A DNA stretch of 64,000 nt. It comes from Gammaproteobacteria bacterium. GTDB taxonomy: Bacteria; Pseudomonadota; Gammaproteobacteria; Pseudomonadales; Azotimanducaceae. The stretch spans positions 1-64,000 of the forward strand of contig VXNM01000007.1 in assembly GCA_009840545.1 (NCBI GenBank), given 5' to 3'. Of the stretch, positions 52,130 to 56,958 are shown piece by piece. Under the pieces are notes generated by a model, which was not told where the DNA came from, did not search any database, and saw only the letters and a program-made list of their open reading frames with translations. Both the position numbers and the translations under genes were made by a program. Positions within the stretch are counted from its first letter, which is position 1. Every line of letters starts with the position of its first letter.

Positions 52130-53443
52130 CTACGTATGCAGCCGTTTGACCTTGGCTCGTCGCCTTGGGATGCCAAGCTTATTGCGTCGTTCCCATAGGC
52201 TTTTTCTGGATATCCCTAATTTTTCGGCAAGTTCCGTCTCAGTGTAGCGTTCTTCGTTGGCGCGGACAAACTCGATGAAGTAATCTTCTAAAGTTGTGAA
52301 CTCACCGCTGGATTGTTCCACTGGATGCTGGGGAGGCGGAATCGTATCGATTCCGAGATCTTCCGGCAGTATCGAGTTTGACTCGCTTACTAGAACGGCT
52401 CTCTCGACAGCTTGGTCGAGTTCTCGAATGTTGCCGGGCCAGTCATATTGCAACATTCGGGTCACAGTTGATACATGAAACTCCATTCCGGATTTCCCTA
52501 AAGCGGAGCTGTGCTTTCTCAACTTGTCCTCCGCCAATAAGGCTACATCGTCTCCCCGTTCAGTTAGTGGCGGCAGTATCAGTCTAAATTGGCTCAGTCG
52601 TGTGCATAGACCTCTCCCGATTCTGCCCAGATCCGCCAAGGTGTCGAGAGGAAATACGCTGGCAACGATGATTCGTATGTCAACAGCAATGGGTTGATCC
52701 TGCCCGAATTGCTGAATTTCGTTGTAATCAAGTAGATGCAAGAGCGCTGCTTGTGCCTCGCTCGGTAGACTTCCAACTTCGTTCAGAAACAAGGTTCCGC
52801 CGTTAGAGGCGAGGACGCGCCCAGAATATGTCTCGCCTTGGCCACCCCCAAACAGTTCGTCCATCACTCTATCTGGTGGAACTCGATCACAGTCCAACTT
52901 TACAAAAGGACCTTCTGACCTATTGCTTGTGGAATGAATGCATTTGGCAACCAAGTTCTTGCCGGTTCCCGTGGCACCGTGCAGCAAAACGGATCCGTCG
53001 GTGGGGGCGACTTTCCGTACCAAGTTTCTTAATTCTCTAATTTCGTCGCAGTTACCTAGAATTTCTCGTTCTAGGTTGAACAAGCCACTTGCCATATCGG
53101 AGTCAAGGACTGAACTGAGAATTGCATCAGTCAGTTCTTGCTGTGTACCGACGGGAATGTAGTCATAAGCTCCGTTACGTATTGCACTCACCGCTTTGCC
53201 AATTGTCGGATCGTCGTCGACGATGATCACTGGAGCGTAGGTTGAGAGTTGTCTCAAAGTCGCCGCCTGATCGACGAGTCTCGATGGAGCTAATATCGCA
53301 TGAAATGTGTTCTGGGGTGTTCCATTAGCCAAATCGTCGGCGGAGTGATCCAATACTTGGTAATCGCTCTCGGCCATGCACTCGTGAACCAAGGAGCTCA
53401 CTGGTCCGTCGTCGAGTACGCTACAGAGAATCACGTTTAGCAC
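52130..53443 (-). CDS. Degenerate NtrC/CbrB-like transcriptional regulator
   Basis: 437 residues, GTG start. Layout: receiver-like domain (1-115), AAA+ domain (about 127-352), Fis-type helix-turn-helix (403-425, TELAEKLGISRKSLWERR). The receiver has lost the phosphoacceptor Asp (ILAPS at 50-54) and the conserved Lys (YIPVGT at 95-100). Walker A is GATGTGKN (156-163). The stretch between ELFG and GGTLFL is 15 residues instead of the 21 in NtrC, and GAFTGA is absent; Walker B reads LFLNE with Asn221 for Asp. Position between gluQ and pcnB is that of CbrB, but cbrA is absent. It probably does not activate sigma-54 polymerase. Confidence 0.8.
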   Translation of the reverse strand: MLNVILCSVLDDGPVSSLVHECMAESDYQVLDHSADDLANGTPQNTFHAILAPSRLVDQAATLRQLSTYAPVIIVDDDPTIGKAVSAIRNGAYDYIPVGTQQELTDAILSSVLDSDMASGLFNLEREILGNCDEIRELRNLVRKVAPTDGSVLLHGATGTGKNLVAKCIHSTSNRSEGPFVKLDCDRVPPDRVMDELFGGGQGETYSGRVLASNGGTLFLNEVGSLPSEAQAALLHLLDYNEIQQFGQDQPIAVDIRIIVASVFPLDTLADLGRIGRGLCTRLSQFRLILPPLTERGDDVALLAEDKLRKHSSALGKSGMEFHVSTVTRMLQYDWPGNIRELDQAVERAVLVSESNSILPEDLGIDTIPPPQHPVEQSSGEFTTLEDYFIEFVRANEERYTETELAEKLGISRKSLWERRNKLGIPRRRAKVKRLHT

Positions 53444-53494
53444 GTACCCTAACTAGAGCTGGTTTGAAATGTGCATAAGATTCAAGAATTTACT

Positions 53495-54373
53495 CTAGAT
53501 ACTCACTACACTTGAAAGGCTCGGTTCGGAGGGAATGTTTTCTAGGGACCAGTGTTCAATGCCCCAATCCAACAATTCTTCAAGAGCCAAGCCTTGAGGT
53601 GGATCCATTCCTAGTAGCTGCATTGACCACATTACATTTTGTATTGGATGCCGATTGTCAATAGTCGTGGCTTCGTCTCTTTTCGACAACTTCTCGCCAT
53701 TTCGATCATTGACCACAGGGATATGTGCGTACCAGGGGCGTTTAAATCCTAACTTCTCCAAAAGGAAAACTTGCAGCACGGTATTGTCGGCAAGGTCGGA
53801 CCCGCGTATGATGTGAGACACTCCCATGATACTGTCATCGACTACGACGGAAAGCGGGTAGCTCGGAATTCCATCTCGCCTCCATACGGCGACGTTCTTC
53901 GCACCACTACAAACACCTTCATGCAATTGACCTTGAATTTCGTCGCGAACATCTGTGTCGACTAGTGACACTCGCATCCTAATCGAATATGGTTCTTGTT
54001 TTTTGGCCTTGGATGCACCACAACCCTGTACGCAGCCTGCATAGCGGTCAATGTCCTTGCGACTGCACGTGCACGGAAATGTGTGTCCTTGGTCGGCAAG
54101 ATTCTTTAAGGCTCTCTGGTAGTGATGGATATGTTCCTGTTGATGGATAGGTTTTCCATCCCAGTGCAACCCGTGGCGCTCGAGAGACGTCAAGATGTCT
54201 CGTTCGGCCTCTTTGCTTACGCGCGGTGTATCGAGGTCATCAATCCGTAAGAGCCATCGACCTCCACGAGAACGTGCGTCGAGAAAACTAGCAACGGCAA
54301 CAAGCAAAGATCCCAGATGCAGTGCTCCGGAGTTTGTCGGCGCAAAGCGTCCTACGTAATCTTGTGAGTGAAT
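53495..54373 (-). CDS. gluQ: Glutamyl-Q tRNA(Asp) synthetase
   Basis: Attaches glutamate to the queuosine base of tRNA-Asp. About 292 residues. YVGRFAPTNSGALHLGSL holds the HIGH-type ATP motif (HLGS); LLRIDDLDTPR, the zinc-binding CTCSRKDI and CVQGC cysteines, and the KMSKS-like GEKLSKRD are all present, and the anticodon domain of GluRS is absent, as expected. No ATG, GTG or TTG precedes the HIGH motif: the frame is closed by the dksA stop (54385-54383). The best start is ATT at 54373-54371; the first standard start (TTG 54307) would remove the ATP site. Confidence 0.88.
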   Translation of the reverse strand: MHSQDYVGRFAPTNSGALHLGSLLVAVASFLDARSRGGRWLLRIDDLDTPRVSKEAERDILTSLERHGLHWDGKPIHQQEHIHHYQRALKNLADQGHTFPCTCSRKDIDRYAGCVQGCGASKAKKQEPYSIRMRVSLVDTDVRDEIQGQLHEGVCSGAKNVAVWRRDGIPSYPLSVVVDDSIMGVSHIIRGSDLADNTVLQVFLLEKLGFKRPWYAHIPVVNDRNGEKLSKRDEATTIDNRHPIQNVMWSMQLLGMDPPQGLALEELLDWGIEHWSLENIPSEPSLSSVVSI

Positions 54374-54382
54374 CGTTTCGAC

Positions 54383-56161
54383 TTAGCTGCCACGTTGCTG
54401 CTTTTCGCGAACCTCATCGCGTTCCTTGCAGTCTACGCACTTTGTGGCGATAGGTCTGGCTTCCAGTCGACGCAAACCGATTTCAATGCCGCAGTCGTCA
54501 CAGTAGCCATAGTCCTCAGTTTCCAATTTCTCTAGTGCTTGTGCGATTTTGTTAATTAGCTGACGTTCTCGATCCCTCGTACGCAGTTCGCCTTCAAAGA
54601 TTCCCTCATTTGTTCCTTGGTCTACGGGATCGGGCAAGTTTGAGACTTCACCCTGCATATTGTTGACCGTCCGGTCTACGTCTTCCATGAGTTTGTCTCG
54701 CCAGCGAACGAGTATTTCGTGAAAGTGCCCGTGTTGATTCTTGGCCATATAAGGCTCATTGACTCGAGGCTTGTACGGTTCAATTCCAAGATTCCTAAGG
54801 AATCCAGTATTCGCGGCCTCAGGGCTGATGCTAGGTTCTCGATCCGTCCTTGGCGTCCGTGGTCTTGTCGCAGCACCAGCTTTGCGCGCACTGGCGGAAG
54901 AAATGGCCGCCAGCTTGCTGATTTTTTCTGACTGGCCTACTTTGGGAGCCGACCTAGTCGGCTCCCTAGAACTGGGATCTTCGGCCGATTTTGCCGAAGC
55001 GCGGGACTTCGACTTGGATTTACCCGAGGAAGTTGTCTTGGCTTTGTTGGCTTTCTTTGGACTAGCTTTCGCTGCAGAGGCTTTGGTTTTAGATGTACGC
55101 TTAGGGCTTGCCTTTGACGTGCCAGCTTTGGACTTCTTGACCGCTCCTACTTTCGGAGACTTGTCAGCCGATTTTGCGGGTGCCTTCTTTACTGGAGATT
55201 TTGTTGCGGGCTTTTTGGCAGAGGATTTCCTTGCGGAAGTCTTTGCAGCGGTCTTCTTTGCCGGCGCGCTCTGTACCGCGGACTTTCTTGTAGTCTTTGA
55301 AGCTAGCGTTTTCCTCGAGGGCGTTTTCGTTGCGCGACTTGACTTTGTCGAATCTGAAGGTTTCTTTCTAGAAGACGTAGCTTGGGTCGACGCTACCGAT
55401 TTCTTTGCCTTACTTTTCGCGGCGGGTTTCTTTGTAGCAGCCTTTGCTGCGGCTTTTGGAGCGCTTGGTTTGGTGGCTCGTGCCGAAGTCCTTGCTCGGG
55501 AAGGAGTCTTTCTTGCCGCCGTTTTCTTCGACGACGCCACTGGCACAGTCTTCGCCACTTTAGCTTCCTCCTCGGAAGCTAACACATAGCCTTTGAGCAT
55601 TTCCAAAGCTTTAGAGGCTCGATCGATCGCAGTCACAACTGAACGTGCTGTAGGTCGCCGTTTGGTTATTGCCTTTCGCCCTTCTGATCTCGCCTTGGCG
55701 GCTACCTTCTTGGTCACGGTTTTCCGCGGAGTGGCACTTGTTGCAGACTTGGTAGTAGCCAATTTCTTTGCTTTTGTGGATTTGGCGGCAGATTCCTTCT
55801 TGTTGGCTGCCTTGCTCTTTGTGGCTCTGGATGTCGCCCTTGCTTTTTTCTTGTCGGCGGTAGCTTTTTTGGCCGCCGATTTTGCTGTTGCCCGTGGCTT
55901 CTTGGAACTCACGGCCTTAGCTGGGGTCTTTGTCGCTTTCGCAGCAGTCTTCGCGGACTTAGGTTTCTTGGATACCTTCTTCGTCGACTTTGACGTAGGT
56001 TTGGAGGCTTTCGCTCTAGAAGGATTCTTGACCTTCGTGTTAGCAGCCTTGGATTTCTTTTTTTGGCTCTTCGATCGTTTTTTTGAACCGCCTACCGCTG
56101 AGACATCGGGCTTTGTCTCTGGTTCGCTGGATGCATTTTGTGATTCTGCTTGCAGTGTCAT
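54383..56161 (-). CDS. dksA: DksA with a long histone-H1-like N-terminal extension
   Basis: DksA binds the RNA polymerase secondary channel and with ppGpp reshapes transcription. The C-terminal 141 residues (452-592) are a full DksA: GFLRNLGIEPYKPR, coiled coil with MQGEVSNLPDPVD at the tip, and zinc finger CDDC (554-557) and CVDC (575-578) with E. coli spacing. Residues about 27-390 are an extreme Lys/Ala/Ser/Thr/Pro sequence with KKPAAK-, KKTAAK- and AKSPVKKAP-type repeats, broken by one non-basic segment (168-206, VVTAIDRASKALEMLKGYV). E. coli DksA is 151 residues in all. The ATG at 56161 is used; a GTG at 56212 adds 17 residues. Divergent from sfsA, followed by gluQ. Confidence 0.93.
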   Translation of the reverse strand: MTLQAESQNASSEPETKPDVSAVGGSKKRSKSQKKKSKAANTKVKNPSRAKASKPTSKSTKKVSKKPKSAKTAAKATKTPAKAVSSKKPRATAKSAAKKATADKKKARATSRATKSKAANKKESAAKSTKAKKLATTKSATSATPRKTVTKKVAAKARSEGRKAITKRRPTARSVVTAIDRASKALEMLKGYVLASEEEAKVAKTVPVASSKKTAARKTPSRARTSARATKPSAPKAAAKAATKKPAAKSKAKKSVASTQATSSRKKPSDSTKSSRATKTPSRKTLASKTTRKSAVQSAPAKKTAAKTSARKSSAKKPATKSPVKKAPAKSADKSPKVGAVKKSKAGTSKASPKRTSKTKASAAKASPKKANKAKTTSSGKSKSKSRASAKSAEDPSSREPTRSAPKVGQSEKISKLAAISSASARKAGAATRPRTPRTDREPSISPEAANTGFLRNLGIEPYKPRVNEPYMAKNQHGHFHEILVRWRDKLMEDVDRTVNNMQGEVSNLPDPVDQGTNEGIFEGELRTRDRERQLINKIAQALEKLETEDYGYCDDCGIEIGLRRLEARPIATKCVDCKERDEVREKQQRGS

Positions 56162-56265
56162 ATGAGAAAATGAGAGTAAAGCTCGTGTCTGAGAATCGTG
56201 CAAACATACCAAAAAACTCCCCCGATTGCTAGATTAGATGCAGAATTTCTTGACTGTAGTTTGCT

Positions 56266-56958
56266 GTGAGGTTTGACCCAGCTTTACGCGAAGGAATTCT
56301 TCTACGCCGGTATAAGCGGTTTTTAGCAGATGTCAAGGTTGGAAAGCATGTATTGACGATGCACTGTGCCAATACGGGTGCGATGCACGGCTGTGCGGAA
56401 GAAGGATCTAGAGTTTGGTATTCTACCAGTAAAAATCCTAATAGGAAGCTTTCAAGTTCGCTTGAGTTCGTTCAGACGCTTCAGGGATACGAAGTTTGCG
56501 TCAATACGGCGAGGGCCAATCAGCTTGTTCATGAGGCATTGCTGTCCAAGCAGATCCGACAAGTTGCGAATCACTCGGATTGGTCGCGAGAAGTTTCCAT
56601 TCCAGGCGAACGAGGTCGTTTCGATTTCGGTTCAGACAACGTCATGTTGGAAGTCAAGATGGTTTCATGGCTGCGAAAGGGCATCGGCGTGTTTCCGGAT
56701 GCGGAGAGCGTCAGGGCAACAAGGCACGTGCAAGCACTCGAGCAATGTGCCAAGCGAGGACTTCGAGCGATACTGTTTTTTTGTGTCCCGCATTCGGGAA
56801 TTGATTACTTGACTATTGCGAAGGACATCGATCCCAGCTATGAGGTTGCCGTTCGGGAAGCCATGAGCTCCGGGGTCGAAGTGCTCGCTTTTCGATGGAA
56901 CATATCGCCAAGAGATTGGAAACTGGATTCGGAGATTCCATTTCAGCTCCCAAACTAG
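56266..56958 (+). CDS. sfsA: Sugar fermentation stimulation protein SfsA
   Basis: 230 residues, GTG start. Family motifs are RRYKRFLADVKV, CANTGAMHGC, VWYSTSKNPNRKL, the EVKMVSW segment with conserved catalytic-type residues, and FPDAESVRATRHVQAL. The family is a restriction-endonuclease-like fold with an OB domain, reported to bind or cut nucleic acid; the biological role is unclear. Divergent from dksA as in E. coli and Pseudomonas. Its stop shares a CTAG with the stop of the opposing kinase gene. Confidence 0.94.
   Translation: MRFDPALREGILLRRYKRFLADVKVGKHVLTMHCANTGAMHGCAEEGSRVWYSTSKNPNRKLSSSLEFVQTLQGYEVCVNTARANQLVHEALLSKQIRQVANHSDWSREVSIPGERGRFDFGSDNVMLEVKMVSWLRKGIGVFPDAESVRATRHVQALEQCAKRGLRAILFFCVPHSGIDYLTIAKDIDPSYEVAVREAMSSGVEVLAFRWNISPRDWKLDSEIPFQLPN

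Follow-up and report, generated by a model that had tools for sequence, protein, structure and literature searches.

A DksA protein whose core is preceded by an N-terminal basic tail of about 450 residues is encoded in the window, i.e., the whole stretch of 64,000 nucleotides analyzed here (contig VXNM01000007.1, Azotimanducaceae). Tailed DksA proteins are common, and the one in the window is an extreme example, not a singular one. Additionally, the coiled-coil tip of the core is, judging by aligned sequences, remodelled throughout the genus and is a rarer feature here than the tail. DksA retunes RNA polymerase in starvation and has been studied as a small protein acting via the polymerase, not by binding of promoter DNA. 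If the tails bind DNA or polyphosphate, ppGpp control could respond directly to the state of the nucleoid or to polyphosphate.

The gene reads from ATG at 56161 to TAA at 54383-54385 on the minus strand as 592 unbroken codons (Table 1). Only one match to PF01258 (zf-dskA_traR) was found in the whole 3.39 Mb genome, that of the tailed DksA. A second DksA copy was thus rejected, and the statement of the preliminary description that this is the only dksA holds for the genome. The conserved sfsA-dksA-gluQ position proposed there was also found, with sfsA head-to-head on the plus strand and gluQ immediately downstream. A promoter consensus scan of 53400-56500 gave 2 sites vs. 1.8 expected, both on the plus strand. 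Two antisense open frames on the plus strand, 54759-55589 (276 codons) and 55593-56165 (190 codons), mirror the Lys-rich tail; these frames are probably spurious, and gene finders may call them.

Table 1. Features of the tailed dksA gene and of its neighbours, in coordinates of the window.
Feature	Coordinates	Strand	Evidence
Whole gene, DksA with N-terminal basic tail, 592 aa + stop	54383..56161	-	Frame, Pfam, NCBIfam
Residues 1-26, short non-basic N-terminal leader	56084..56161	-	ATG co-located in sister genomes; net charge
Residues 27-167, first basic disordered block	55661..56083	-	Composition; pLDDT about 42-57
Residues 172-203, predicted helix, low net charge	55553..55648	-	AlphaFold2, G003 identity, G014 pattern
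Residues 207-390, second basic disordered block	54992..55543	-	Composition, pLDDT
Residues 391-430, conserved island adjoining core	54872..54991	-	Identity 0.65-0.95 with G003
Residues 453-592, DksA core (coiled coil, C4 zinc finger, C-terminal helix)	54386..54805	-	Pfam, NCBIfam, 1TJL, AlphaFold2
Residues 511-524, coiled-coil tip DPVDQGTNEGIFEG (E. coli 71-84)	54590..54631	-	Alignment, census
Residues 554-578, four zinc cysteines (E. coli C114, C117, C135, C138)	54428..54502	-	
gluQ (GluQRS)	53495..54373	-	Same frame, directly after dksA stop
dksA/sfsA intergenic region	56162..56265	.	Promoter consensus scan: none on dksA strand
sfsA, divergent neighbour	56266..56958	+	TIGR00230, 165 bits above cut-off

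The downstream gene has an unusual start in the window clade. In the three genomes of this clade (the window itself and loci L022, L024, and L070), gluQ is in frame with dksA, with one TAA between them, and no ATG, GTG, or TTG is present ahead of its conserved N-terminal motif; the equivalent start position is occupied by ATT (54371-54373 in the window), ATC, and ATC. The start is GTG or ATG in the 7 other genus loci where it is readable, and the order loci L007 and L012 are likewise without a canonical one. From these sequences, a non-canonical start or coupled readthrough is possible for gluQ of the window clade.

Fusion of DksA to a basic tail, the central claim of the preliminary description, was confirmed by Pfam, TIGR02420, and 1TJL, all of which place DksA in the last 140 residues. 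The Pfam search at E<=1 found only DksA_N (residues 476-545) and the zinc finger zf-dskA_traR (residues 550-583). The scores were 137.8 bits for TIGR02420 (DksA), above the curated cut-off of 115.5, and 38.3 bits vs. 24.9 for the zinc finger PF01258; for the narrower model NF008045, the score of 168.6 is below the cut-off of 289. E. coli DksA (1TJL), which is without the tail of about 450 residues, aligns ungapped with the core over 136 residues (E=3.7e-47). The core keeps the four zinc cysteines as well as D71, D74, L95, K98, R129, and K139, of which the last four are, as we assume, ppGpp site 2 contacts. Two RelA/SpoT (RelA_SpoT) matches were found in the genome. In an AlphaFold2 model run on an 18-row alignment (whole-model mean pLDDT 57), ten-residue means for the core are mostly 80-91, falling to 68-69 at residues 501-520, around the coiled-coil tip. 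The core described earlier as a complete DksA is complete in its fold, but conserved residues of its tip are changed, with R75Q, A76G, S83E, and L84G among the differences from E. coli.

Residues 1-453 contain 22% Lys, 7% Arg, 21% Ala, 27% Ser and Thr together, and 7% Pro, with a net charge of +109. The preliminary description had assigned H1- or AlgP-like repeats to residues 27-390. The H1-like basic composition was found, and residues 1-26 are indeed not basic; the basic sequence, however, runs past residue 390, and no repeat array is present. Tandem Repeats Finder returned 0 arrays in the tail, by which tandem-repeat expansion was rejected and regular KPAA-type repeats are absent. AT-hooks were also absent, neither GRP nor RGR being found in the tail. 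A tail query against the genome at E<=10 matched only itself, a search in which low-complexity correction may hide other tail-bearing proteins.

The non-basic helix-like segment said to split the tail at residues 168-206 was recovered by AlphaFold2 as a helix at 172-203, with ten-residue mean pLDDT of 91, 93, and 84 over 171-200; the remaining blocks of residues 1-450 are at 39-57. The 20-residue windows over 161-200 are 0.70-0.75 identical to the sister genome G003, and the others up to residue 390 are 0.00-0.65 identical. The island adjoining the core was also detected in G014 and in L022. With G014, the helix segment shares a co-linear RRPTxRS pattern. By local alignment this similarity did not reach significance, as 103 of 1000 shuffles did equally well, and by a global test limited to the picked segment it did (0 of 1000 shuffles); homology of the helix with G014 therefore rests on the chosen segment; in the clades other than that of the window, no homologue of the helix was found. 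Docking or dimerisation through this helix is a guess.

The closest parallels to this architecture are found in three known systems. The Myxococcus xanthus CarD protein likewise combines an RNA polymerase-binding module with a disordered basic tail that binds DNA (PMC4374960), the latter activity being only proposed here. CarD differs in having another polymerase-binding domain, a C-terminal position of the tail, and AT-hooks, which the window tail lacks (PMC4374960); the CarD/CdnL polymerase-binding domain is absent from the window protein (Pfam, E<=1). Pseudomonas AlgP and PhaF likewise have a disordered, Lys/Ala/Pro-rich, H1-like basic tail, disorder being a prediction for the window protein, but with other partner domains, a C-terminal position, and KPAA repeats (PMC9239181). 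Unlike these, the window tail has no tandem repeat and much Ser/Thr. The third system, DksA of Xanthomonas euvesicatoria, likewise has a long N-terminal extension, which is experimentally supported (PMC5559785). That extension is about 109 residues long vs. about 450 here, and the two are likened by length, not by composition. In a study of TraR/DksA proteins, homologues longer than DksA are noted, and the section concerned does not describe their tails (PMC9239242). In searches of the open-access literature, no paper was listed that treats basic DksA tails as a class.

We favour with moderate confidence a general DksA whose core acts in the secondary channel and whose tail binds a polyanion. 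The C-terminal core would enter the secondary channel of RNA polymerase, as DksA does. The flexible and strongly positive tail of about 450 residues would bind the polyanion regardless of its sequence, DNA being the likeliest target. DksA would thereby stay at the nucleoid and be locally more concentrated near the polymerase, in a manner akin to the HMGA-like tail supporting Myxococcus CarD. Both DNA as the target and the effect on the polymerase are what we infer for the tail. Four HU/IHF-type matches were found in the genome, so the tail does not just replace absent nucleoid proteins. Since the part of the core facing the polymerase active site, the tip, is rebuilt in the genus, classical DksA output is not to be assumed.

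Exactly one DksA match was found in each of the 18 genus genomes, and all 18 proteins have basic tails, with lengths of 194-499 residues. In the family, a DksA match was found in 194 of 206 genomes. Outside the genus, a basic tail (at least 60 residues, K+R at least 20%, K+R more than 2x D+E) was found in 38 of the 92 family loci read and in 16 of 32 genera; these loci were partly picked for long frames, so the fractions are not random frequencies. In the order, 12 of the 13 members read have no tail passing the test. Thus, the tail is dispensable for DksA as such, being absent by this test from half of the family genera read and from these 12 order members. Tail starts were set at the first ATG, which over-extends a few tails and cuts L022; L070, which wholly contains L022, was used in its place. 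The tail counts leave out L022 and L152, and L100 and L102-L113 were unused.

In the class sample, 142 of 149 genomes have a DksA match, the window's own included. About a third of the other dksA-bearing genomes (47 of 141) carry a basic tail of at least 60 residues, a working count in which a pair of frames of 200-201 and any weak matches not listed do not figure. It covers every other genome for which a frame of at least 205 was listed (64 in all), of which 47 passed a stricter test (K+R at least 20%, K+R more than 4x D+E), in which the start codon was picked to favour a basic tail. In other Gammaproteobacteria, the tailed proteins likewise join a DksA core to a basic N-terminal extension of 60 to about 350 residues; outside the genus, they differ from the window protein in having Ala at position 76 and tails that are often purer Lys/Ala. 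The same architecture thus recurs through family and class, and the tailed DksA cannot be viewed as a singular event. In the genera g37 and g6, the loci L128, L129, and L018 have basic tails on DksA cores of another type, which cluster in the core tree; in L018, two of the four zinc cysteines are missing.

The main rival to DNA as the target of the tail is inorganic polyphosphate; the sequence would allow polyphosphate or RNA equally. By this reading, which we consider unlikely, polyphosphate formed in starvation would store or steer DksA and so tie the stringent response to its own regulator. AlgP, with its Lys/Ala/Pro tail, localises to polyphosphate granules (PMC9239181), and the two tested polyphosphate binders of Pseudomonas aeruginosa have nine Lys in 20 residues, four of them consecutive (PMC12077175). 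The window tail reaches nine Lys in 20 at residues 26-46, three of them consecutive, but only two overlapping windows of the tail do so. The genome also has a polyphosphate kinase beside the two RelA/SpoT matches.

Less likely again than storage on polyphosphate is a tail that is tolerated low-complexity growth of little function, or that is removed by proteolysis, so that the core does all the work. Such growth would fit the range of tail lengths within the genus (194-499 residues) and the fast drift of the tail, for which dN was 0.15-0.67 in all of 26 close-relative pairs but the nearest. Against it, dN/dS of the tail was below 0.6 wherever computable, at 0.16-0.55 in 23 of the 26 pairs, with the window's own pair not computable because of saturated dS. 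The core values in these pairs were 0.00-0.06. The wide recurrence of the tails and the two islands of the window tail conserved with G003 are also against it.

A neutral simulation, run to the same identity with 200 runs for each of 9 pairs, likewise disfavours tolerated growth. The K+R fraction of the partner tails was 0.25-0.31 vs. simulated means of 0.19-0.23, and in 7 of the 9 pairs none of the 200 simulations was as high. For hydrophobic residues, the fraction was under the simulated mean in all 9 pairs and lower than in any run in 7 of them. The Lys/Arg positions themselves were retained better than the simulated average for the window pair and for five pairs from a single clade, and better than in any run for 5 of these 6. 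In the acidic-tail clade (L032-L039), they were retained no better than simulated, with observed and simulated fractions of 0.856/0.884, 0.799/0.802, and 0.922/0.918, and the K+R content was inside the simulated range in 2 of 3 pairs. The Lys/Arg content of the tail is held above neutral expectation by this simulation; alignment of such tails is uncertain.

A further alternative, which we consider improbable, is that RNA or ribosomes are what the tail binds, or that it promotes condensates close to the polymerase, acting on transcripts and not on DNA. A chain of this composition could bind RNA, but the only Pfam domains matched in the protein at E<=1 are the two DksA domains.

The full-length tail is probably translated in this organism. 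All 18 genus genomes have a long frame at this locus (334-661 codons), which puts a chance frame out of question. The preliminary description called the reading frame continuous, and the in-frame fusion was found in three different genomes of the same clade, i.e., the window, G003, and G014, the sister genomes having tails of 375 and 499 residues; the stretches of G003 and G014 are contained letter-for-letter in the MAG records L069 (COS3_bin_7) and L070 (COS2_bin_1). Checks for the two flaws named there, a frame error between tail and core and an internal start near residue 440, were both negative. Between residues 209 and 471 there is no in-frame ATG, GTG, or TTG, so a normal-length DksA cannot begin inside the tail, and M472 as a start would remove the front of the core. 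The best internal start is GTG at residue 202, with a perfect AGGAGG 8 bases upstream (55556-55572), which would give a 391-residue form. This codon is GTT in G003, so the site may be there by chance. An artefact, in which a frame error or mis-assembly fused dksA with an AlgP-like gene or the long frame conceals the start of a normal DksA, can be dismissed as extremely improbable with the frame kept in both sister genomes, no start codon at 209-471, and the second basic block still present in the GTG-202 form.

No clear Shine-Dalgarno sequence was found before the window's own ATG; six other genus members (L025-L029 and L037) have a GGGAG-type ribosome site immediately before the ATG of the tail. 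A comparable extended protein is made in Xanthomonas euvesicatoria, where DksA is translated from an upstream GTG and its length was corrected from 147 to 256 residues via peptides and start-codon mutagenesis (PMC5559785). A processed form was also seen there (PMC5559785), and by analogy the tail could be cleaved off in DksA of the window type too, as the removal alternative would have it.

The coiled-coil tip motif of DksA is described as DxxDxA (PMC9239242). The window protein has DPVDQG instead, with both Asp kept and Ala replaced by Gly; it is therefore regarded as a DksA homologue by descent and score, not as a proven functional DksA. Residue 75 is Gln in all 18 genus genomes. Outside the genus, 91 of 92 family loci have Arg (the remaining one cannot be read), as do 12 of 13 order loci (Lys in the last) and 61 of 64 class loci, picked for long frames, among which Gln, Ile, and Lys occur once each. 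At position 76, 10 of 18 genus genomes have Gly, and 169 of 169 outside loci (92 family, 13 order, and 64 class), tailed or not, have Ala. Residue 84, counted outside the genus in family and order only, is Ile or Leu in 105 of 105 loci there; in the genus, 16 of 18 genomes have Gly, Asn, or Thr at this position and the other 2 have Ile. Locus L152 was dropped from these counts. In the core tree, which is poorly resolved and for which the tool warns of long branches in the genus, nine Gly-76 rows form one clade (support 100/99).

In E. coli, growth on minimal medium was restored by neither D74N nor L84A, both variants are given in a table as failing to repress rrnB P1, and L84 is crosslinkable to beta-prime 744-747 (PMC7461557). 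L84A was inactive in these tests (PMC7461557), yet 16 of 18 genus genomes are without an aliphatic residue at this position. The remodelled tip is a natural experiment on which tip residues are required for DksA activity.

The polymerase was compared as well. RpoC was read in 14 of 18 genus genomes (loci L244-L252 and L254-L258 against L229-L243 and L253). Across the genus, 68 of 854 beta-prime positions conserved outside it are changed. Of the 13 conserved positions that fall in the rim-helix tip (665-682), 5 are changed vs. 63 of 841 elsewhere (p=0.002), in a post hoc test of one of six regions tried, with bounds set after seeing the list; for the 55-residue rim region, p=0.019. No excess of changes was found in the trigger loop, the bridge helix, 738-760, or the pooled secondary channel. 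The changes in the tip and the rim helix would fit co-evolution of DksA and the polymerase. In a broader reading, which is possible but rather doubtful, tailed DksA proteins would be widespread secondary-channel regulators on a polyanion tether, with DNA or polyphosphate availability gating the stringent response, and in the genus the tip and rim helices would have changed together to give a new active-site output.

Sequence divergence within the genus is uneven. DksA cores of clade B (G001, 6, 9, 15, 16, and 17) have 53-56 of 140 residues identical to the window; outside the genus, the numbers are 66-83 in most loci and 38-54 in g33, g35, g40, and one order member. The same pattern was found for RpoC, with 62-63% identity to the window in clade B and 65-70% outside. 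For the control HemL, identity is 66-69% in most of the genus (G003, 83; G014, 76; G012, 59) and 54-63% in 18 of 20 outside genomes, the other two having only distant matches. RpoC is thus fast-evolving in part of the genus, clade B being less window-like than other families, which is not so for HemL. At beta-prime 746-747, clade B has CL in place of LM. In another genus member, G012 (locus L021), both Asp of the DksA tip motif are replaced, giving ExxExA.
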